IMG/VR virus record: IMGVR_UViG_3300037237_000474
Location: 1 to 21,242 of that record
Origin: a virus
Reading direction: 5' to 3' (one strand)
Length of the DNA stretch: 21,242 nt
Positions 1,235-21,242 of the stretch are shown here, one piece after another. The position numbers were made by a program, and so were the translations under genes. The notes below the pieces were generated by a model. It was not told the DNA's origin, did no database searches, and was given only the letters and a program-made list of their open reading frames with translations. Numbering within the stretch: the first letter of the stretch is position 1; each line of letters opens with the position of its first letter.

Positions 1235-1816
1235 GTGCGGAGGGCATGGGACGCAATGGCGCCCATCGGCCCTCCCCAAGGCGGGGCAGGGACTCTGGAC
1301 GTCGCAATCAGCAGCCTTGGCGATCGCGACGCCGATCAGCTCCGCCTCCAATGGCGAAACCACCTGGGCGGGGCCGCGCCCGCCCATCTGCCGCGCTGGC
1401 TGCTGGTGCGCCTGCTTGCCTATCGCTTGCAGGTCGCAGCGCTCGGCGATCTCGACAAGGCGACGCTACGGACCCTTCGCCTACCCAAAGGCGAAGGCGA
1501 CGGGGCCTCCGACTGCCGCCCGTTCGAGATCCGAGGGCCGACGACCCGCGCCGGGGTCGGCCTTAAGCCAGGTTCGCTACTCGTTCGTGAATGGAACGGC
1601 AGGCGGGAGCGAGTGATGATCCTTGAAAAAGGCTTCGCCTGGAACGGGGCGACCTATCGCAGCCTCTCGCAAATTGCCAAAGCGATGACCGGCACCAGTT
1701 GGAACGGTCATCGCTTCTTCGGATTGCGGCCGGGGAAGGGTCAAGGCGTTGCAGCTAAAGGGAGCCGCTCCTCCGACGAGAACCGGAATCATGATGCGGG
1801 TGTGGCGGCGTCATGA
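1235..1816 (+). CDS. DUF2924 domain protein
   Basis: 193 aa (GTG start) or 186 aa if the in-frame ATG at 1256 is used; AAAAGGA lies close to the GTG and GGAGGG lies before the ATG. The family is recognised by the N-terminal helix with LQWRNHLGG and LLVRLLAYRLQ (about residues 41-66) and the C-terminal block (about residues 113-165) with LKPGSLLVREWNGR, GFAWNGATYRSLSQIA and TGTSWNGHRFFGL, the hallmark of DUF2924. Its TGA overlaps the ATG of the recombinase (ATGA), so translation is probably coupled. The function is unknown; it is nearly always found just before a large serine recombinase, which suggests an accessory role in site-specific recombination or its control. Confidence 0.9.
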   Translation: MRRAWDAMAPIGPPQGGAGTLDVAISSLGDRDADQLRLQWRNHLGGAAPAHLPRWLLVRLLAYRLQVAALGDLDKATLRTLRLPKGEGDGASDCRPFEIRGPTTRAGVGLKPGSLLVREWNGRRERVMILEKGFAWNGATYRSLSQIAKAMTGTSWNGHRFFGLRPGKGQGVAAKGSRSSDENRNHDAGVAAS

Positions 1817-3489
1817 AACGACAGGACCGCAAGACCGAGCTCCGCCGCTGCGCCATCTATACCCGCGTCTCGACGGAATACGGCCTGGAGCAAGAGTTCA
1901 ACTCGCTGGACAACCAGCGAGAGGCTTCGGAGGCCTATGTCAAGAGTCAGGCGCACGAGGGCTGGAAGCTGATCCGGGATCGTTACGACGATGGCGGCTT
2001 CTCAGGCGGCTCCATGGAGCGGCCAGCGCTGAAGAAGCTTCTGAATGATGTGAGGGCGCGAAGGATCGACGTCATCGTCGTCTACAAGGTCGACCGGTTG
2101 ACGAGGTCGCTAGCGGACTTCGCCAAGCTGGTCGAACTGTTCGACGAGCATGAAGTCTCCTTTATATCGGTAACCCAGTCCTTCAACACCACCACGAGCA
2201 TGGGACGCCTCACGCTGAATATGCTGCTGTCCTTCGCTCAGTTCGAGCGCGAGATAACCGGGGAGCGTATTCGCGACAAGGTCGCCGCATCGAAGAAGAA
2301 GGGCATCTGGATGGGAGGCGCCGTTCCGATCGGCTATCGCGTCGAGAATCGCGCGCTCCATATCGTGGAGGAGCAAGCCGACTTCGTCCGCGATCTCTTT
2401 CGACGTTATTTGGAGGTCGGTAGTGTCGTGCGGTTGAAAATCGCCCTCGATGCGGAAAATGTTCGTTTGCCCATTCGGACAGTTGGGACGGGAGGGACGA
2501 CGGGCGGGGGATTGATCAGCCGAGGCCACATCTACCACATCCTTTCGAATCCTATCTATGCCGGCCGGCTTCGCCACAAGGAGCAGATCCACGAGGGGCA
2601 GCATGCGGCAATCGTCGATGAAGACATCTGGAACCGCGTCCAGTTCTTGCTTGCCGACCAGACGCAGACGAGGAAACCTGCAAGTCGGGATGTTCATTCC
2701 TTTCTCGCCGGCAAGCTGTTCGACGATCGCGGCCATCGCATGGGCCCGAGCCATGCGGCGAAGGGTGGCCGGCGATGGCGCTATTACATCTCACGCGCGG
2801 TGCTGAAGGGTCGCAAGCAGGATGCGGGTTCCGTCGCACGTGTACCAGCGGCCGAGATCGAGAAGCAGGTGCTGGCAGCGGTCAAGAGTCTATTGCCTCC
2901 TCTCGAGCACGCAGTAGATGGATCCAGAGGGTCGGTCGGTCATTCCATCTCCAGGTCCTCGAACAGCACGCTGGCCGCAAACAGCTCATCATTGACAGAC
3001 CCATCCAACTTCGAGGACCGGGCTCGCAGCGCCATCGATCGCGTCACGATCGGCAAGGCGGGAATCGAGATCCAGCTTTGTGACGCCGCGGCGCGGGAGG
3101 GCGATCGCATCGCCACCATTCCCTGGACCTTGCCATCGCCCCACCGGCGGCGCGAAATCTTCCAGGGCGAAGGCGAGCCGTCATCCACGGTGCGTCCGAT
3201 GCGAGTCAGGGACCGGGCTGTTTTTGTCGAAGCGCTTGGCGACGCCCATCGCTGGCTTGATGAATTGACGCGCAACGCCGATCATACCGCGGCGACTATC
3301 GCCGCCCGCGAGGGCAAGACCGAGCGTTCGATCCGCATGACGCTGTCTCTTGCCTTCGTCGCGCCGCCCATTGTCGCGGCGGCGATCGAGGGACGGCTTC
3401 CGCGCGGTTTTGGCGTCAAGCGCCTGATGGATCTGCCGATGGTCTGGTCCGAGCAATGGACCGCGCTCGGGCTCGCGCCGCCTGCGTAA
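1813..3489 (+). CDS. Large serine recombinase (resolvase/invertase family)
   Basis: 558 aa site-specific recombinase. The N-terminal resolvase domain (about residues 12-155) carries the YTRVST motif with the nucleophilic Ser20 and neighbouring Arg18, then SLDNQREA, DDGGFSGGSMERPAL, IDVIVVYKVDRLTRS and LLSFAQFEREITGERIRDK, all typical of catalytically competent members. A Recombinase domain follows (GAVPIGYRVENRALHIVEEQ, then ISRGHIYHILSNPIYAGRLR at about residues 236-255). After it comes a region in the position of the zinc-ribbon (AGKLFDDRGHRMGP) that shows no clear Cys pairs. The C-terminal half ends in a helical tail with an HTH-like SIRMTLSLAFVAPPIVAAAI stretch. It is the third gene of a tight operon with DUF3489 and DUF2924 genes. 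No attP/attB pair for it is recognisable. It acts in the cytoplasm on DNA, and could drive integration or excision of the material around it. Confidence 0.95.
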   Translation: MKRQDRKTELRRCAIYTRVSTEYGLEQEFNSLDNQREASEAYVKSQAHEGWKLIRDRYDDGGFSGGSMERPALKKLLNDVRARRIDVIVVYKVDRLTRSLADFAKLVELFDEHEVSFISVTQSFNTTTSMGRLTLNMLLSFAQFEREITGERIRDKVAASKKKGIWMGGAVPIGYRVENRALHIVEEQADFVRDLFRRYLEVGSVVRLKIALDAENVRLPIRTVGTGGTTGGGLISRGHIYHILSNPIYAGRLRHKEQIHEGQHAAIVDEDIWNRVQFLLADQTQTRKPASRDVHSFLAGKLFDDRGHRMGPSHAAKGGRRWRYYISRAVLKGRKQDAGSVARVPAAEIEKQVLAAVKSLLPPLEHAVDGSRGSVGHSISRSSNSTLAANSSSLTDPSNFEDRARSAIDRVTIGKAGIEIQLCDAAAREGDRIATIPWTLPSPHRRREIFQGEGEPSSTVRPMRVRDRAVFVEALGDAHRWLDELTRNADHTAATIAAREGKTERSIRMTLSLAFVAPPIVAAAIEGRLPRGFGVKRLMDLPMVWSEQWTALGLAPPA

Positions 3490-4980: not shown

Positions 4981-5220
4981 CCCAAGCACGCCCCGGTGTC
5001 GCGCGCTGTTCACTCTCATCGTTCCCATTGTCGCCGAATTGGCCAGCCAATAGCGACATTCTACAAGCGAAAAGATAAGGCGCTTTCGCTAATAGCTTCT
5101 AGGCTCAACGTCGATCGCTGGCCGTTGTTCTAATGTTGCACCCCTACGGTGACGCAGCGCGGGCGGTTTGCTATTCGGGAAAAAAAACGAACTATATGGG
5201 GGTGGCGAGAGAACCACCGT
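4978..5220. repeat. Tandem repeat, unit 1
   Basis: First of three related units. Anchors shared with unit 2 are GTCCCCAAGC (4978 versus 5237), CGACATTCTACAAGCGAAAA (5054 versus 5311), the stretch around GCTCAACGTCGATCGCTGGC, then ACCCCTACGGTGACGCAGCG and the two-box core (GGGCGGTTTGCTATTCGGG and TATATGGGGG with TGGCGAGAGAACCA). The offset to unit 2 is 257-259 bp. In this copy the CGCAGCGC / GGGCGG junction (5160/5161) is intact, so it records the target site before the IS1 insertion. Confidence 0.85.
5168..5198 (+). promoter_or_regulatory. Promoter-like two-box core, repeat unit 1
   Basis: TTGCTA (5168-5173) and TATATG (5193-5198), 19 bp apart. The same boxes and the same spacing recur in units 2 and 3. 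The boxes are conserved while the spacer differs, which is what a recognised site would show. Only a reading frame of ten codons (GTG GCG AGA GAA...) follows. Confidence 0.4.
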
Positions 5221-5236: not shown

Positions 5237-5417
5237 GTCCCCAAGCGCGCCCCGGCACGCGCTGCCAAGCGGGTGTTCACCCGCTCTCAGCCGAATTGGC
5301 CTGCCTATTGCGACATTCTACAAGCGAAAAGATAAGGCGCTTTCGCTAATAGCTTCTTGGCTCAACGTCGATCGCTGGCCGTTGTTCTAATGGCGCACCC
5401 CTACGGTGACGCAGCGC
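5237..5417. repeat. Tandem repeat, unit 2, left part (cut by IS1 element)
   Basis: Second unit, nearly identical to unit 1 across the CGACATTCTACAAGCGAAAA and ACCCCTACGGTGACGCAGCG anchors. It is interrupted after CGCAGCGC by the IS1-family element and resumes at 8455. Differences from unit 1 cluster in the first ~70 bp. Confidence 0.85.
5410..5417. repeat. Target site duplication, left copy
   Basis: CGCAGCGC directly before the left inverted repeat; the same 8 bases stand at 8447-8454. Repeat unit 1 has this octamer only once (5153-5160), so it is a true duplication. Eight or nine bp is normal for IS1-family elements. Confidence 0.9.
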
Positions 5418-5437
5418 GGTAGTGGGTCCATTTGAAT

Positions 5438-5794
5438 TTAGCGAGAAAGATCGAAGGCGAGAGCGTTAGCCGCTTGGGCTACCGAGCTTAAGGGGTGAGC
5501 GCTACACCAGTTATCAATCCAGCCATCAATTCCTGCGGAGTCAGTTTGGTGGAGAGCCGCGTTTATTTTCTCGTGCTCCGCCGCCATGGCGCTCATATAT
5601 CCGTGGACCCATCCTTGAACGGCGCCGAACTTGGCAATGGATGCGATGTCCTCACCATGTCTCCACTGGCCCCAAGATCCGCACGAGGCGTTCCCCGCTC
5701 CCATAGTGCCCACAGAATGGCTCTCCTGCGCCAGGCAGGTGGAGAAGCTAAGCGAGGCGGCGCACGCGACGACAAAGATATCGATGCGCCTCAT
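5438..5794 (-). CDS. Secreted small Cys-containing protein (IS1 passenger)
   Basis: 118 aa from ATG 5794 (a GTG at 5800, overlapping the transposase stop, is an alternative; GGGGGTG precedes the ATG). The N-terminus is a Sec signal peptide (RRIDIFVVACAASLSFSTCL, cleavage likely near LAQES). The mature part has SCGSWGQWRHG, FGAVQGWVHGYMSA and IDGWIDNWCSAHPLSSVAQA, i.e. two Cys that could form a disulfide around a helical domain. Small exported proteins with this CGxW...GW.xGY...WI.NYC.xxP pattern are frequent in Hyphomicrobiales, distantly like Rap1a/Tai-type periplasmic proteins; I know of no proven function for them. The stop codon lies two bases inside the element's left inverted repeat, so the gene belongs to the transposon and is probably read from the transposase transcript. 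Confidence 0.75.
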   Translation of the reverse strand: MRRIDIFVVACAASLSFSTCLAQESHSVGTMGAGNASCGSWGQWRHGEDIASIAKFGAVQGWVHGYMSAMAAEHEKINAALHQTDSAGIDGWIDNWCSAHPLSSVAQAANALAFDLSR

Positions 5795-5796
5795 GA

Positions 5797-6672
5797 TCAC
5801 CCCCGCTTTTTGTAAGCCCCGCGTTTTGCGGGCTTCGCTTCAGCCGCCTCGGCAAGCCCCACAATATCCGACACTTCCCACAGCTTGTCACTAACGCCGG
5901 CCTGCATCGCGGGAGTGACGCGCAGCGTTTTGTGTATGCGGCAGAAATTATAGAAAAAGCTGAAAAGAGCTACTGAGTAAGCATGATTTTCGAGCTTCTT
6001 TGAGAAGCCGTTTGTAAGACGCGTGAAGCGACGATTTTGCATGCGGATCGTCAGATTGCTGCGCTCCACATACGACGTTGATACGTGCGCCTTGTCTGGC
6101 TTCCCTTCAATCGGCGTCTTGATCGCGCCAGTGCATTCAGCGGGGCTGTAGCGGCCCTTGGCGCTCTCTGGCGAGGCTCCATAAATCTTGACGAGCATCG
6201 CATAGTCAACGTCGCCACCGAACGCGCCTTCAACGGCTTCTAGGTAGGCCTTGTGGCCATCGGTCGTGAGTTGGACGCGGTTAGCGAGGCGCCCGCGAAG
6301 ATCGTCCATCAAAGCGATTGCGGACTGCCCAGAGCGGTCGCCGACGAAGTATGACAGGATCATTTTGCTGTCGGCGCAAAGCGCGGTCCAAGTCCAGCAA
6401 TCGCCTGCGCCGTCGACCGGGGATTTCATCGCGGCAACGTTTTTCTGTTTAGCCGCGACGAAGCTCCAGATTTCGTCGCACTGGACGCGCTTCGATTTGA
6501 CGTTGCGGACATGCTCGTCGTGGTAGACGGCGCAGGCCTCGCCAGCGTCAAGCATCAACCGAATGACGGTGTTTTTGCCGACGCTGAGCATGCGCGTAAT
6601 CGCGCGGATCGAATTTCCTTCACAGAGCATATGAAGGATTTTGGCGCGATCGGACGTGGAGAGCTTGTTCAT
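5797..6672 (-). CDS. IS1-family DDE transposase
   Basis: 291 aa, uninterrupted, without the programmed frameshift of classical IS1. The N-terminus has an HTH-type segment (NSIRAITRMLSVGKNTVIRL, about residues 20-39). The catalytic domain shows Asp66 in VQCDEIWSFV, Asp138 in LTTDGHKAYLEA and Glu203 in SYVERSNLTIRM, with the downstream FFYNFCRIHKTLRVTP typical of single-frame IS1-like enzymes. AGGAGG lies just before the ATG. It should act on the 19 bp ends at 5418 and 8446. The gene starts 19 bp after the stop of the 67 aa passenger gene, and its stop abuts the secreted-protein gene, so it sits inside the passenger operon and not at an end. Nothing looks broken, so the element may still be active. 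Confidence 0.93.
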   Translation of the reverse strand: MNKLSTSDRAKILHMLCEGNSIRAITRMLSVGKNTVIRLMLDAGEACAVYHDEHVRNVKSKRVQCDEIWSFVAAKQKNVAAMKSPVDGAGDCWTWTALCADSKMILSYFVGDRSGQSAIALMDDLRGRLANRVQLTTDGHKAYLEAVEGAFGGDVDYAMLVKIYGASPESAKGRYSPAECTGAIKTPIEGKPDKAHVSTSYVERSNLTIRMQNRRFTRLTNGFSKKLENHAYSVALFSFFYNFCRIHKTLRVTPAMQAGVSDKLWEVSDIVGLAEAAEAKPAKRGAYKKRG

Positions 6673-6691
6673 GCCCTCCTAAATAGACACT

Positions 6692-6895
6692 TCATGCCTG
6701 AGCGTCAAGCATTTTTTCTATATTTGAATTTTCTCCGGCTCTCTTTTTCACGGCCGTCCAAATGCGTGAAACAGATTTCTCAGCTTCTTTCTCGGGGGTT
6801 AAGAGGTCATGATGCGAGCCGCCGCTTCTGATCATCGCCAAAATGTCATCGATTCTATCATCTAGATCTTCCGGCATCTCTTTAGGACCTTTCAT
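6692..6895 (-). CDS. 67 aa acidic/helical protein of unknown function (IS1 passenger)
   Basis: ATG 6895 overlaps the TGA of the hydrolase-like gene (ATGA), so translation is probably coupled. An in-frame ATG a few codons later (MPEDLDDRIDDILAM) is an alternative start. The protein is charged and predicted helical (EDLDDRIDDILAMIRSG, then EKEAEKSVSRIWTAVKKRAG), without signal peptide or membrane segment. I do not recognise the family. The overlap suggests that it works with, or controls, the preceding Ntn-hydrolase-like protein. Base composition is AT-richer than the neighbouring chromosome, as in that gene. Confidence 0.7.
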   Translation of the reverse strand: MKGPKEMPEDLDDRIDDILAMIRSGGSHHDLLTPEKEAEKSVSRIWTAVKKRAGENSNIEKMLDAQA

Positions 6896-8154
6896 GGCGA
6901 TACTCCTTTCGTCGCGAGATTCTTTCGGATAGAAAAATCCAAATTGGTCTCAGCCTTGAAATAGTGCTTTCTTTTGATCCAAATAAATCCGTCGCCTTTC
7001 GAAATAATCGCCACGTCAACTGGACCGCCCACCGATTCCAAAGTGGGGCCAAGCTTCCGGCGTAGCGCCGTCAATTCAACAAGCGCTTCGGCCATTGCGG
7101 CCATTTCCTCTTTTGGAAGAGAGTTTACGGTCTTAAGCGTTTGCTCAATAAGGCTCTTGTTGCGATATTTGCTGAACTCGGCGAAAAGCTCGTCGTTTAT
7201 AACCTTGTTCTCTGCTTCCTGTTTTGTCTTCTCGGCAGGCCTAGCCTTTACGTCAGATACGAAAGCGTCGACCATAGCTTCCGATTTTTTCTTTAGTAGT
7301 TCACGTATAGCTTTTCTCAAATATCTAAGATAATTGCCAGAAATTCCCTCCATAAATAGCTGAAGCATATCGCTCTGAGCGAAGGGTATGATTGCGCCGC
7401 CCGTGTCTGCCTGGCGCCCGGGGACCAGATTATAATTTAGGCTCTGCCGTTCCCAAACCCTCACACACGCGAGGGCGCGCCCGTCTACCTCGTATCTCAG
7501 AACGGCGGGCAGAAATTCTTCTCGGCCGTATCCCGCGAAAACAATACCGGAAGAAAACTCCGAGATTTTTTTCCTAGAAATCCATTCAAACATATATTCA
7601 CATAACTTGGTGTTAAGTTGTTCGTTAGGCTTATGCTTGAAAGCCTCTTTACAGATTCCTTTCACGGCCTGCTTAAATGTACTAACAAAAGTTCCTCTAT
7701 CAAAAGAAAAATCTGCAGGAGTTTTAGTTATAGCAGCCATGGCGTCCGTTATATATTTTTCCAGATTAGTGTTGAATTCTTTATATGTCTTAAACTTGAC
7801 GGCACTTTCTATTTCGTAGGTAATGTTCACGATCAGCCTTGCGAAACTTTCGAATTCTTCTTTGTCATTTTTGAATCTGTTCGATTTTATAAAATCAATG
7901 AAATGGACTGCCGCATCGCTTACCGTGATAAAATGAGTATCAGCGCAATGGCGTCTAAATTCCTTAACTATTGTTTCCCATGGAATGCCTACGAAATCAG
8001 CGGAATTATAGATCATAACTCCGATGTCATTGTGAGGACCGAGGGAGAATAGCTTATTGGCGTACTTCCAAACGCGCTCGCGGCCGACAGTTACAGCACT
8101 GTCGGCCGCGAGCGCGATGGCATGTCTATTTACGATTGCGACTTCAGCCGTCAT
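6892..8154 (-). CDS. Proteasome-fold (Ntn-hydrolase-like) protein, IS1 passenger
   Basis: 420 aa from ATG 8154; the frame stays open to 8391, but the longer N-terminus overlaps the upstream gene and is not protein-like. The start MTAEVAIVNRHAIALAADSA, then NKLFSLGPHNDIGVMIYNSA, matches the opening of proteasome beta/HslV-type Ntn hydrolases. If Met1 is removed, the catalytic trio falls in register: Thr1, Asp17 (AADSA) and Lys33 (NKLF). A later strand block SSGIVFAGYGREEFLPAVLR (about residues 212-231) fits the second half of such a fold. Residues about 65-205 form a mainly helical insertion, a Lys/Glu-rich helical stretch follows at about 285-370, and the end VDVAIISKGDGFIWIKRKHY looks conserved. 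Self-processing is unnecessary, since Thr2 is adjacent to Met1. Substrate and role are unknown. It is cotranscribed with the KGG-type and 67 aa genes. The N-terminal match is seen; peptidase activity is inferred. Confidence 0.78.
   Translation of the reverse strand: MTAEVAIVNRHAIALAADSAVTVGRERVWKYANKLFSLGPHNDIGVMIYNSADFVGIPWETIVKEFRRHCADTHFITVSDAAVHFIDFIKSNRFKNDKEEFESFARLIVNITYEIESAVKFKTYKEFNTNLEKYITDAMAAITKTPADFSFDRGTFVSTFKQAVKGICKEAFKHKPNEQLNTKLCEYMFEWISRKKISEFSSGIVFAGYGREEFLPAVLRYEVDGRALACVRVWERQSLNYNLVPGRQADTGGAIIPFAQSDMLQLFMEGISGNYLRYLRKAIRELLKKKSEAMVDAFVSDVKARPAEKTKQEAENKVINDELFAEFSKYRNKSLIEQTLKTVNSLPKEEMAAMAEALVELTALRRKLGPTLESVGGPVDVAIISKGDGFIWIKRKHYFKAETNLDFSIRKNLATKGVSP
8073..8116. 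repeat. Perfect 18 bp inverted repeat inside the hydrolase gene
   Basis: CGCGCTCGCGGCCGACAG (8073-8090) and its exact complement (8099-8116) are separated by 8 bases. The repeat lies about 38-81 bases into the coding sequence, over the codons for the ALAADSAVTVGRER part that contains the catalytic Asp. In the mRNA this would be a very stable hairpin close to the start codon. Confidence 0.9.
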
Positions 8155-8380
8155 CCTTACGCCACCGCGCTGCGGCGGCTTGACGTGCGATCTCCGAGCG
8201 CCGCTCTTCTGGCAGCTTATCCGCTCGCGCGCGACCGCCCCGTAAGCCGCCCGCTCTCCCAAGAGCTGACATCGGACCCTTGTCCGATTCGGCGGCATCA
8301 TGCGCGTCACCTGTCGCGATGTCCACAATAAGCTTGGCCAATTGTGCGGGATCGCGCGGGCGCTTTGGGTGCTTTGGCAT
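8144..8380 (-). CDS. KGG-type small basic protein (IS1 passenger)
   Basis: 78 aa from ATG 8380. The opening PKRPRDPAQLAKLIVDIATG and the end ALGRAGGLRGGRARADKL with SEIARQAAAARWRKDDG match a small protein very common in alphaproteobacteria, built of a conserved N-terminal box and a KGG-like Gly/Arg/Lys motif (GLRGGRARA). A TTG at 8416 with AGGA upstream is a possible earlier start. Its stop overlaps the start of the hydrolase-like gene by 11 bp, so the two are translationally coupled. Members are often labelled histone- or RNA-binding-like, but I know of no firm function. It is the first gene of the passenger operon, so the promoter must lie between it and the element's right inverted repeat at 8428. 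Confidence 0.82.
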   Translation of the reverse strand: MPKHPKRPRDPAQLAKLIVDIATGDAHDAAESDKGPMSALGRAGGLRGGRARADKLPEERRSEIARQAAAARWRKDDG

Positions 8381-8446
8381 GAGGGTATCATGTGGCAGAA
8401 CGGTTCGCGCGGTCAACGGTTCCTGATTTCAAATGGACCCACTACC

Positions 8447-8454
8447 CGCAGCGC
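8447..8454. repeat. Target site duplication, right copy
   Basis: CGCAGCGC directly after the right inverted repeat of the IS1 element, identical to 5410-5417. Confidence 0.9.
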
Positions 8455-8513
8455 GGGCGGTTTGCTATTCGGGAAAAAAAACGAACTATATGGGGGTGGC
8501 GAGAGAACCACCG
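8455..8513. repeat. Tandem repeat, unit 2, right part
   Basis: Continuation of unit 2 after the insertion: the two-box core and TGGCGAGAGAACCACCG, identical to 5161-5219 of unit 1. Joining 5417 to 8455 restores the repeat exactly, which proves the insertion boundaries. Confidence 0.9.
8462..8492 (+). promoter_or_regulatory. Promoter-like two-box core, repeat unit 2
   Basis: TTGCTA (8462-8467), 19 bp spacer, TATATG (8487-8492), identical to unit 1. It points rightward. A frame of 15 codons opening GTG GCG AGA GAA follows at once. Confidence 0.4.
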
Positions 8514-8790
8514 CCCAAGAGGTTCCGCCAAGCGGTTTCCTGACCGGCGCGTCAATCGCGCCCTCCGCTGTTCACCGCTGTTGCGTCGCATCGCGCGCAT
8601 TGTCGCCGGATTGGGATGGAAGTTACCACTTTCATACGCCGCAAGGATCGCGCGCTTTCCCTAGTATCATCTAAGCTCAACGCCGATTGCGTGCCAGTGT
8701 TCTAAATTGGCACCCCCCGATGTTTCGTCGAGGGCGGTTTGCTATTCGGGATTGGAATCGCTTTATATGGGGCATGGCGAGAGAACCAAC
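8514..8790. repeat. Tandem repeat, unit 3 (diverged)
   Basis: A diverged third unit with recognisable ATTGTCGCCG-ATTGGG, CTAAGCTCAACGCCGATTGC and TGTTCTAA-TTGGCACCCC, then GGGCGGTTTGCTATTCGGG and TATATGGGG with TGGCGAGAGAACCA. The two boxes are perfectly kept although the spacer between them (ATTGGAATCGCTT in place of AAAAAAAACGAAC) is different. Confidence 0.75.
8739..8769 (+). promoter_or_regulatory. Promoter-like two-box core, repeat unit 3
   Basis: TTGCTA (8739-8744), 19 bp, TATATG (8764-8769). Spacing equals units 1 and 2 despite a different spacer sequence. The ATG of a 34-codon frame lies five bases after the second box. The core may also drive the small-gene operon that starts at 9018. 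Confidence 0.45.
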
Positions 8791-18745: not shown

Positions 18746-19036
18746 TCAATCCGGCCACGGCCGCAAACCGGCTTCGGCCTCGCGTTCGATACGGTCGCGT
18801 TCCCTTATGCCTTCCGAAGCTGGCGAGCTTCCCTTGTCCCAAAAGTAGGTTTCCCTGCCGATCAAGAGCGCCGCGAGGGCGTCGATCGCGGTTATGACCA
18901 TGCTTAGGCCGTGATACATTGTCCCCATAGGCTTGACGTGCGTTGACGCCTCAATCATCGCCCGCCGACACGCCCGCAGGGAGCCGAGCAACGGGCCGGG
19001 ATTGGCGATCTTGTCGGGCAGTTTGTGGTAGACCAT
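18746..19036 (-). CDS. 96 aa protein of unknown function, with a truncated second copy nearby
   Basis: ATG 19036 with GGAG eight to nine bases upstream. PGPLLGSLRACRRAMIEAST, then GTMYHGLSMVITAIDALAAL and YFWDKGSSPASEG, followed by a Glu/Arg helix and a C-terminal GLRPWPD. The central hydrophobic helix may touch membrane or form a core. The tail is repeated in the 19890-20024 fragment with several substitutions, mostly in the charged helix. Conservation of the reading frame between two copies shows that this is a true gene. Family not recognised. Confidence 0.7.
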   Translation of the reverse strand: MVYHKLPDKIANPGPLLGSLRACRRAMIEASTHVKPMGTMYHGLSMVITAIDALAALLIGRETYFWDKGSSPASEGIRERDRIEREAEAGLRPWPD

Positions 19037-19136: not shown

Positions 19137-19301
19137 TCACTTCAAATTATTGGCCACTTCGTTGAACACGGTCTTCACCTTGCCCCCAAGGGTGGTGACG
19201 GTGCCGATGATCGCAACGGCGATCAGCGAGGCGATCAGAGCGTATTCGATGGCGGTCGCGCCGGACTCGTTGGCTAGAAACGCCTTGATTCGATCGGTCA
19301 T
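19137..19301 (-). CDS. flp: Flp family type IVb pilin
   Basis: 54 aa, ATG 19301, GGAG six to seven bases upstream. TDRIKAFLANESGATAIEYA, then LIASLIAVAIIGTVTTLGGK and VFNEVANNLK. The class IVb prepilin site is plain: the leader ends at Gly before ATAIEY, with Glu at position 5 of the mature protein, followed by the hydrophobic pilin helix. The product would be cut by a TadV-type prepilin peptidase and assembled in the inner membrane by a Tad secretion system into adhesive Flp pili. No tad/cpa genes are in the window, so this is an orphan copy or depends on a tad locus elsewhere. Length is normal for the family. Confidence 0.9.
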   Translation of the reverse strand: MTDRIKAFLANESGATAIEYALIASLIAVAIIGTVTTLGGKVKTVFNEVANNLK

Positions 19302-19889: not shown

Positions 19890-20024
19890 TCATCCGCCAT
19901 CTGGCCACGGCCGCAGACCGGCTTCCGCTTCGCGCTCGATACGCTCACGCTCCCTTCTTTCTTCTGAGGCCGGCGACGATCCCTTGTCCCAAAAATAGTC
20001 GGGGCGCCGGATCACAAGCTCCCC
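19890..20024 (-). pseudogene. 3' part of a second copy of the 18746-19036 gene, cut by an ISAs1 insertion
   Basis: Minus-strand frame: ELVIRRPDYFWDKGSSPASE, then REAEAGLRPWPDGG-type end (actual: EREAEAGLRPWPDGG) and a TGA. It aligns with ALLIGRETYFWDKGSSPASE and the GLRPWPD end of the gene at 18746. Homology runs right up to base 20024, where the ISAs1 inverted repeat starts, so the insertion has removed the front of the gene. The missing N-terminal part should continue just past 21242. Confidence 0.85.
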
Positions 20025-21242
20025 CAGGGGAATCGCATTTGGAATTCTGTTGATGTGCACATGAGAGCTTGCGCCGGGGGAAGGTGATGGATTCTACCAG
20101 ATGGCGTTGGGAACACGCCCTGGGAGGATGTCTTGGAACAGTTTTCTGCGTGCTGGGAGGGTCTGGAAGACCCGCGAACCGGCAATGCCGGGCTGCATGA
20201 CTTCCATGAGCTTCTAGTGATCGGCCTGTGCGCGGTCCTGTGCGGTGGTCAGGGCGCGGTCGACATGGCGCTGTTTGCGAAGGCAAAAGAGTCCTTCCTG
20301 CGCGGCTTTCTCAAGCTGGAGAATGGCGTGCCCAGCCACGATACGTTCAGCCGGCTATTCCGCCAGCTTGATCCGACGCAGTTTCAGGCGGCTTTTCAGC
20401 GTTTCATGGAGAGTTTCTCCGAACAATGTCAGGGTGTGGTGGCGATAGATGGCAAAGTGCTGCGCCGATCGTTCGATCGCGCCAACGGCAAGTCGCCCCT
20501 GCACATGGTCAGCGCCTGGGGCTGCGAGCAACGCATGGTGCTGGCGCAGATCGCCACGGACGCCAAGTCCAACGAGATCACCGCCGTGCCGACGTTGCTG
20601 AAGATGCTGTCGTTGAAGGGCGCGATCGTGACCGCCGACGCGCTGAACTGCCAGCGTGCGATCGCTCAGCAGATCGTCGATCAGGGTGGCGACTATGCGC
20701 TGGCTCTGAAGGGCAATCAGAGCACGCTCCACGATGATGTCCGCACTTATCTCGACGATCCCGCAAGCAAGACCATCACGGCCAAGCCGGATGTCGAGGC
20801 CGATCACGGCCGCATCGAGACACGCACGGCGACGGTTTCGACCGATATCGACTGGTTGCAGAAAGACCATCAATGGCCCGGCCTGACCGCCATCGGCAAA
20901 GTGGTCCGCATCCGTGAAACGCTGGCCACGACCACGACCGAAACCGCTTATTACCTACTCAGTGCGGCCTTATCAGCCGAACGCCTCAACGAAGTTGTCC
21001 GCTCCCATTGGGGTATCGAGAACCGGCTGCATTGGCGGCTCGATGTCGTGATGAACGAAGACCAGGACAGAACCCGCCTGGGCAACGGCCCACATAATCT
21101 GGCCGTTCTGCGCCACATGGCGTTGAACGTCATGCAAAAAGACGCAACCAAAGGCTCCTTGCGCGGCAAGCTCAAGCGAGCCGGCTGGGACGATGGCTAC
21201 CTTGCAACCCTGCTGGCGCTCTTTTGAAATGCGATTGCCCTG
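20025..21242 (+). mobile_element. ISAs1-family insertion sequence, complete (1,218 bp)
   Basis: Left end CAGGGGAATCGCATTT (20025-20040) and right end, inverted, CAGGGCAATCGCATTT (21227-21242): 16 bp with one mismatch, with the CAGGG start typical of ISAs1. The single transposase gene fills the interior, and its stop codon touches the right repeat. The element ends exactly at the last base of the window, so the target duplication (8-10 bp in this family) cannot be checked; the left flank ends AAGCTCCCC. Confidence 0.9.
20133..21227 (+). CDS. ISAs1-family DDE transposase
   Basis: 364 aa from TTG 20133 with GGGAGG five bases upstream. The N-terminal region FSACWEGLEDPRTGNAGLHD, then FHELLVIGLCAVLCGGQG, is the usual ISAs1/H-repeat opening (DUF4338-like, 'DDE_Tnp_1-assoc'). 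The catalytic residues are Asp106 (VVAIDGKVLRRS), Asp169 (VTADALNCQ) and Glu296 (SHWGIENRLHWRLDVV), with NEDQDRTRLGNGPHNLAVLR after it. Length is full for the family and there is no frameshift, so it is probably active. It acts on the ends at 20025 and 21242. Confidence 0.95.
   Translation: MEQFSACWEGLEDPRTGNAGLHDFHELLVIGLCAVLCGGQGAVDMALFAKAKESFLRGFLKLENGVPSHDTFSRLFRQLDPTQFQAAFQRFMESFSEQCQGVVAIDGKVLRRSFDRANGKSPLHMVSAWGCEQRMVLAQIATDAKSNEITAVPTLLKMLSLKGAIVTADALNCQRAIAQQIVDQGGDYALALKGNQSTLHDDVRTYLDDPASKTITAKPDVEADHGRIETRTATVSTDIDWLQKDHQWPGLTAIGKVVRIRETLATTTTETAYYLLSAALSAERLNEVVRSHWGIENRLHWRLDVVMNEDQDRTRLGNGPHNLAVLRHMALNVMQKDATKGSLRGKLKRAGWDDGYLATLLALF

Follow-up and report, generated by a model that had tools for sequence, protein, structure and literature searches.

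Among the 22 proteasome homologs described by Fuchs, Alva and Lupas in 2021 (PMC8665760), PMI-4 is a proteasome homolog with multiple insertions, for which HDY66466.1 serves as the reference sequence. According to the sections of that paper drawn on here, a long insertion after H1/H2 is found only in PHI, PMI-3 and PMI-4 and an insertion between H3 and H4 in PMI-2 to PMI-6, while both together are found in PMI-3 and PMI-4. A steric argument against ring packing is given there for such an insertion layout, and those sections report nothing on the genomic context of PMI-4 that points to function.

The window analysed here is the whole of a virus record of 21,242 bases. An open reading frame (ORF) on its minus strand (6892–8154) encodes a 420 aa protein, whose start is MTAEVAIVNRHAIALAADSAVTVGRERVWKYANKLF and begins with MT. 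A sequence-only reading of the window had placed Thr1, Asp17 and Lys33 of this protein in the register of the proteasome beta subunits, and this is borne out: counted from Thr2, the Asp is residue 17 and the Lys residue 33, corresponding to Thr2/Asp18/Lys34 of the unprocessed protein. Searches with the single 420 aa sequence gave the Pfam Proteasome family at E 0.12, below the model cut-off, and no proteasome match in the PDB. The protein is matched over residues 1–409 by phrog_5990 (E 3.9e-91), and a profile of 28 relatives matches the Thermoplasma 20S beta subunit (E 1.3e-4), aligning Thr2/Asp18/Lys34 onto Thr1/Asp17/Lys33 and the strand GGPVDVAII (also written GGPIDVAVI) with GGMIDVAVI. Conservation of the three residues among homologues was also found. 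Every row of alignments A1 (28 of 28) and A2 (85 of 85) has Asp18 and Lys34. Among the 126 loci (a redundant set) whose tblastn match starts at query residue 1, position 2 is occupied by Thr in 124 and by Ser in two. Asn50 of the window protein aligns with the oxyanion residue Gly47; the relatives have Gly at this position in 62 and Asn in 17 of 85 rows, and a backbone NH may suffice here.

The AlphaFold model of the protein, obtained with the 85-sequence alignment, has a pLDDT of 91.3 and a pTM of 0.89. Its comparison with the 20S beta subunit gives a Z score of 17.9 over 181 residues at 2.7 Å, with model residue 2 placed on chain residue 1, and that with Anbu a Z score of 17.4; the best Foldseek match is at 2.1e-5. 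The proteasome fold, for which the earlier reading had proposed exactly such a prediction and comparison, is thereby confirmed. The sequences GVMIYNSA and GIVFAGYG, which it had picked out, lie on strands 43–50 and 202–209 of the model, and the large helical insertion and long helical later part that it had noticed appear as helices within residues 97–193 and 273–345. The first insertion consists of helices 97–118, 124–142, 153–171 and 178–193 and follows helices 59–69 and 78–90, while the second (helices 273–298 and 302–345) lies between helices 262–269 and 348–368. We regard the proteasome fold with conserved Thr, Asp and Lys as established and infer the function, including protease activity, the mechanism of which follows from the superfamily.

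Both insertions of the published scheme are thus present in the model, one after H1/H2 and one between H3 and H4 (assigned by strand order). Compared with the published Table 1 (PMC8665760), as far as it is drawn on here, the taxonomic spread, which includes phages and Firmicutes, points to PMI-4 and not PMI-3. The 420 aa protein therefore fits PMI-4, in which it is placed by the published description of insertions and taxonomic spread. What the window protein shares with PMI-4 in that account (PMC8665760, same sections) is Thr/Asp/Lys, the beta-subunit fold, both insertion sites, the lack of a propeptide and the spread over bacteria, Euryarchaeota and phages. It does not represent a new family, as PMI-4 is already described; new here are a small partner and a cargo slot in a transposon, both of which are absent from the same sections. 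The core fold and the catalytic triad are also common to the 20S beta subunit, HslV and Anbu. However, the window protein differs from these in its length of 420 aa, two long helical insertions, the lack of a propeptide and the paired small gene. In contrast to the 20S and HslV subunits, which are compact, stack into closed rings and have an ATPase partner, the modelled subunit does not appear compact, and neighbour clustering found no recurrent ATPase family near PMI-4. Two loci (L048 and L049) encode a 280 aa relative, perhaps PMI-1 or PMI-2, which keeps WIKRKHYF and is without the first helical insertion. One PMI-4 copy (L147) has one in-frame TGA, which would indicate a broken gene or another code.

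The enzyme gene and its partner are carried by a complete 3,029-bp transposon of the IS1/IS1595 superfamily (5418–8446). Its terminal inverted repeats (TIRs), at 5418–5441 (left, plus strand, starting with GGTAGTGGGTCCATTTGAA) and 8423–8446 (right, minus strand), form an inverted pair of 24 nt with 92% complementarity, the first 19 nt being identical in both arms. They are flanked by the 8-bp target duplication CGCAGCGC at 5410–5417 and 8447–8454, located from the sequence with a script. Insertion took place in the second of a pair of near-identical repeats (5033–5162 and 5290–5419, 95%); the first is unoccupied, and an unoccupied target copy is present at 5153–5219 (plus), its 67 nt being identical to 8447–8513. 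The inverted ends, the target duplication and the unoccupied copy bear out the earlier description of the enzyme gene as transposon cargo. All on the minus strand, the genes of the element follow in the order of a 78 aa KGG-type protein (8144–8380), the PMI-4-like protein, a 67 aa protein (6692–6895), a 291 aa transposase (5797–6672) and a 120 aa ORF (5438–5800) between the transposase and the left end. The transposase is named at superfamily level only, because PF03400 is above its cut-off (27.1 against 24.1 bits) and the NCBIfam models for IS1 (72.4 bits, cut-off 100) and IS1595 (23.3 bits, cut-off 75) are below theirs. The 120 aa ORF has no Pfam match and no relatives in the loci searched; by eye, its hydrophobic N-terminus resembles a signal peptide.

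Several other features of the window lie outside the element. A third, diverged copy (8729–8772, 80%) of the AT-rich repeat at 5158 and 8452 is present. The plus strand encodes a DUF3489 protein which also matches phrog_10315 (473–1219), a large serine recombinase with Resolvase and Recombinase domains (1813–3489) and, at the end of the record, a second transposase with DDE_Tnp_1 and an associated domain (20133–21227). A 100-nt direct repeat, 82% identical, is found at 18749–18848 and 19899–19998. The end of the record may be host DNA, since a 54 aa ORF (19137–19301, minus) resembles a Flp-type pilin.

The transposase has relatives in 28 of the 385 genomes of one class sample, at 76 viral loci and on plasmids. 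A TIR pair was detected in 66 of 107 transposase loci, and a TIR pair together with a target duplication (at most one mismatch) in 46, leaving 43 elements after three duplicates were removed. Elements of this type measure about 1.4 to 5.6 kb and combine a single transposase gene with one for the KGG protein. The KGG protein is part of the transposon: 35 of the 43 elements have it, irrespective of the cargo they carry, and where the transposase identity is at least 55% it occurs in 29 of 29. It was accordingly rejected as a general partner or substrate of the enzyme. The sequence-only reading had coupled the enzyme gene to both of its neighbours, and both overlaps are real, the KGG gene sharing 11 nt with the start of the PMI-4-like gene and the start of the 67 aa gene overlapping its stop (ATGA). 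Of these two, the 67 aa protein stands as a general partner, whereas the KGG protein is a component of the transposon. The KGG gene also overlaps the enzyme gene in a Rhizobiales chromosome (L053) and a viral contig (L042), in which KGG, PMI-4 and transposase genes are ordered as in the window, and in L080 the end of a KGG-like stretch closely precedes the enzyme gene. A 65 aa partner occupies the matching position in L053, and the PMI-4 reading frame of L042 is interrupted.

The pairing of PMI-4 with a small gene extends well beyond this transposon. Of the non-redundant PMI-4 genes, 101 have 300 nt or more of downstream sequence, and 94 of these 101 are directly followed by a same-strand ORF of 45–85 aa starting between −35 and +30 nt relative to the stop, compared with 87 of 573 control genes (Fisher p 1e-54); when an ATG and a Shine-Dalgarno-like site are included, the counts are 68/101 and 20/573. 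PMI-4 and its neighbour are thus two coupled genes in the manner of toxin-antitoxin pairs. The same rule finds no partner in the remaining seven of the 101 loci, and two of 11 further annotated loci (L270 and L277) have no downstream ORF of 35–110 aa. The full set of 107 non-redundant PMI-4 loci rests on gene calls by our own script and includes a few short or broken copies. A slightly wider scan yielded 96 small ORFs, of which 43 form one profile group, approximately VYRSMEEFEKKFFPKS...GTxLAxESLxxIRxxL, that none of the 87 control ORFs reaches at E 0.01; the other 53, including the 67 aa protein of the window, lie outside this main profile and are more divergent. The partner is under purifying selection, with dN/dS well below 1 in the most closely related independent pairs (0.047/0.30, 0.097/0.964, 0.125/1.68 and 0.137/1.10), and it is annotated by the depositors in phages of Providencia and Porphyromonas and in an Enterococcus plasmid. 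It has a basic or disordered start and a C-terminal helix. The 67 aa protein is, by this gene pairing, the partner of the PMI-4 enzyme. A fused AlphaFold model of PMI-4 and partner from L085, in which both genes were joined as one chain with the stop read as Gly, shows no confident docking and lends no support for binding, because the pLDDT of the partner is only about 40–71. A literature search, mostly at abstract level and with few subscription journals, found no report of a partner of PMI-4.

Transposons with defence or toxin-antitoxin cargo are known from the Tn7-like and Tn3 groups (PMC8649781, PMC7157771; the parts of these reports used here). Exchangeable cargo of this kind is shared with the KGG transposons, although the IS1/IS1595-type element is much smaller, at about 1.4–5.6 kb. 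The slot holding PMI-4 in the window is occupied in sister elements by a series of other genes. One element (L155) carries RmrA/RmrT (E 3e-191 and 1e-97), and PD-Lambda-2_B-like proteins are carried by L154 and L156 (4e-40 and 2e-49), the former having TIRs and standing outside the 43 elements. ClpP-like SDH proteases are the cargo of L157, L192 and L195, with an adjoining ORF of 63–68 aa in the first two. Two proteasome-like proteins of other kinds are also KGG-transposon cargo (L216:1890–2837 and L219:4855–5766, both minus); their Pfam matches are weak (16.7 and 21.8 bits, cut-off 22.4) and their best PDB matches are proteasome subunits (E 0.027 and 0.011).

The cargo of elements with TIRs and target duplication was scanned as 72 of 76 listed ORFs, none of them from the window, leaving out three PMI-4 pieces (L042 and L053) and one transposase fragment (L194). 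The control was 72 ORFs drawn randomly from 199 flanking ORFs, the cargo set being somewhat larger (16,887 against 14,520 residues). PADLOC identified PD-Lambda-2_B in six, RmrA in four to five and RmrT in one of the cargo proteins, besides others. At 1e-4, 218 PADLOC models match the cargo and 16 the control, with one protein for each of the 16, a contrast of kind more than of number because many models overlap on one protein. The Pfam families in the same 72 proteins are M78 (7), SocA_Panacea (4), SDH_protease (4), P63C (4), nSTAND1 (2) and Abi_2 (1); some cargo was assigned to its element by eye, since the family tallies are without protein identity. The slot is not purely defensive, as GNAT acetyltransferases and genes of no known function are also among its cargo. 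The P63C-type cargo of L202, L210, L230 and L239 has a KGG-like N-terminal segment resembling the KGG protein of the transposon. RosmerTA is described as a phage defence system (PMC10440598, in the part used here). Like the PMI-4 pair, the RosmerTA, PD-Lambda-2 and Panacea modules are made up of two genes, and sister transposons carry them in the slot that PMI-4 takes here. However, their proteins are unrelated to the pair, having M78/HTH or Panacea antitoxins and no proteasome fold. Genes of the M78/HTH type also act as phage regulators. In the literature search mentioned above, with the same coverage, no defence cargo of IS1/IS1595-type KGG transposons was found reported.

At least 506 relatives of PMI-4 occur in species genomes, ranging over bacteria and archaea and including methane-cycling archaea. 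Matching records comprise 13 phages and 10 plasmids, of which 12 of the 23 were viewed. PMI-4 is the last gene, after the lysin, in a Streptococcus prophage, adjoins lysis genes in Providencia and Stenotrophomonas phages, lies near RelBE in a satellite phage and is found among structural genes in a Porphyromonas phage. A lysin or holin family lies at most five genes away in 15 of the 107 non-redundant loci and in 11 of the 33 viral ones. Cellular loci make up 74 of the 107, most of them without a demonstrated mobile-element setting. The distribution is patchy: two phylum samples of 398 genomes each have matches in 10 and 8 of them, with weak partial matches and seed genomes counted. A match over a short stretch is found in 22 of 5,426 E. 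coli genomes. All three E. coli loci viewed lie in prophages: two have PMI-4 between Q and holin genes, and in the third, a recE/recT prophage, a helix-turn-helix gene of the same orientation precedes it by 42 nt. The prophage copy of E. coli strain H3 (WP_000123148.1) is followed by an ORF of 49 aa. Four Rhizobiales plasmids (L269, L273, L275 and L270) have genes for multiubiquitin, ThiF and DUF6527 within a few kb of PMI-4, in two different arrangements (L270 standing apart), and three of them also have a ClpP-like protease. Multiubiquitin and DUF6527 are confined to these four among 275 loci (not all of which contain PMI-4), and ThiF has a weak match also in L095. A ubiquitin-proteasome-like link was therefore dropped as a general feature and is kept as a lead.

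A function in defence, toxin-antitoxin action or maintenance, as the sequence-only reading had supposed, is suggested by the sister cargo and the prophage positions. We tentatively favour, with confidence a little short of even, a two-gene defence or toxin-antitoxin-like module, in which a Thr-dependent hydrolase is controlled or targeted by its partner. The argument for such a role comes from mobility, patchiness, prophage positions and the exchange with defence and toxin-antitoxin genes in one slot. Methionine aminopeptidase removes Met1 when Thr is at position 2; this processing would expose Thr as the nucleophile, and activity would not have to await the removal of a propeptide. As the two helical insertions lie where the 20S rings pack, the enzyme would probably act on a narrow target, as a single subunit or a small oligomer, and not as a general degradation barrel. 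The partner, with translation initiating on or close to the stop codon of the enzyme gene, would bind the enzyme and either restrain it or select its target. Entry of a phage or plasmid could then shift the balance, and the enzyme would cleave a host or invader protein such that replication stops. Points against a defence reading are the seven of 101 loci without partner, the low confidence of the partner in the fused model, the large share of cellular loci, the mixed cargo of the slot, the phage-regulator role that M78/HTH genes can also have and the lack of informative context in the sections of Fuchs et al. used here (PMC8665760). PADLOC 2.0.0 gave no credible match for the enzyme. PDC-S02 was rejected as a defence label, since it matches at E 4.5e-4 over 58 residues in one of 28 relatives, likely by chance. 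It is possible, and we hold this with more doubt, that PMI-4 and its partner constitute an undescribed two-gene anti-phage class with a proteasome-fold effector, and that a single lineage of small KGG transposons has repeatedly taken up proteases of the proteasome-like and ClpP-like kinds for defence, together with a small partner gene in each case.

The two overlapping genes would also suit a toxin-antitoxin-like pair which only stabilises its transposon, prophage or plasmid and does not act on phages. Such pure maintenance would fit the Panacea, RosmerTA-type and RES-Xre genes that sister elements carry or adjoin, as well as RelBE adjoining PMI-4 in the satellite phage; however, toxicity and neutralisation are predictions, and because toxin-antitoxin and defence functions overlap, it is not cleanly separable from the favoured module. 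We consider maintenance alone rather unlikely. ImmA is a protease that cleaves a regulator, and a PMI-4 enzyme which cleaves a repressor or other regulator could likewise control induction or transposition of its element. M78/ImmA-type proteases among the sister cargo and the helix-turn-helix gene 42 nt upstream of PMI-4 in one E. coli prophage are in line with this, yet PMI-4 occurs in very different element types and at many cellular loci without a shared adjoining regulator, neighbour clustering having found no shared regulator family beside it, which leaves the idea distinctly unlikely.

Proteasome relatives often serve protein quality control, and the wide occurrence of PMI-4 in bacteria and archaea, including the methane-cycling ones, would agree with a general or stress-related role of this kind, PMI-4 being a fitness gene that mobile elements disseminate. 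The patchiness within phyla and the frequency on phages, satellites, plasmids and transposons argue against it, so that we give it an equally small, if not slightly smaller, chance. The least probable of the readings is a connectase-like protein ligase or processing enzyme, for which the small partner would be substrate or tag. Connectase belongs to the same superfamily, the insertions alter access to the site, and a partner with a basic or disordered start and a C-terminal helix is kept at the same place; but the insertion of connectase lies at a different site, S3/S4, in the published scheme (PMC8665760, sections used here), and no recognition motif is common to all partner groups, more than half of the small ORFs being outside the main profile.

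PMI-4 is one of the larger uncharacterised groups of proteasome homologs. Its paired small gene offers a concrete handle on the group, and an enzyme expressed without this partner may mislead. KGG transposons are a new place to seek defence genes, in which they are useful because their ends can be located exactly, and the E. coli prophage copies bring the defence idea within reach of a laboratory test. Should the pair prove to protect against phage, bacterial immunity would gain the proteasome fold as an effector.
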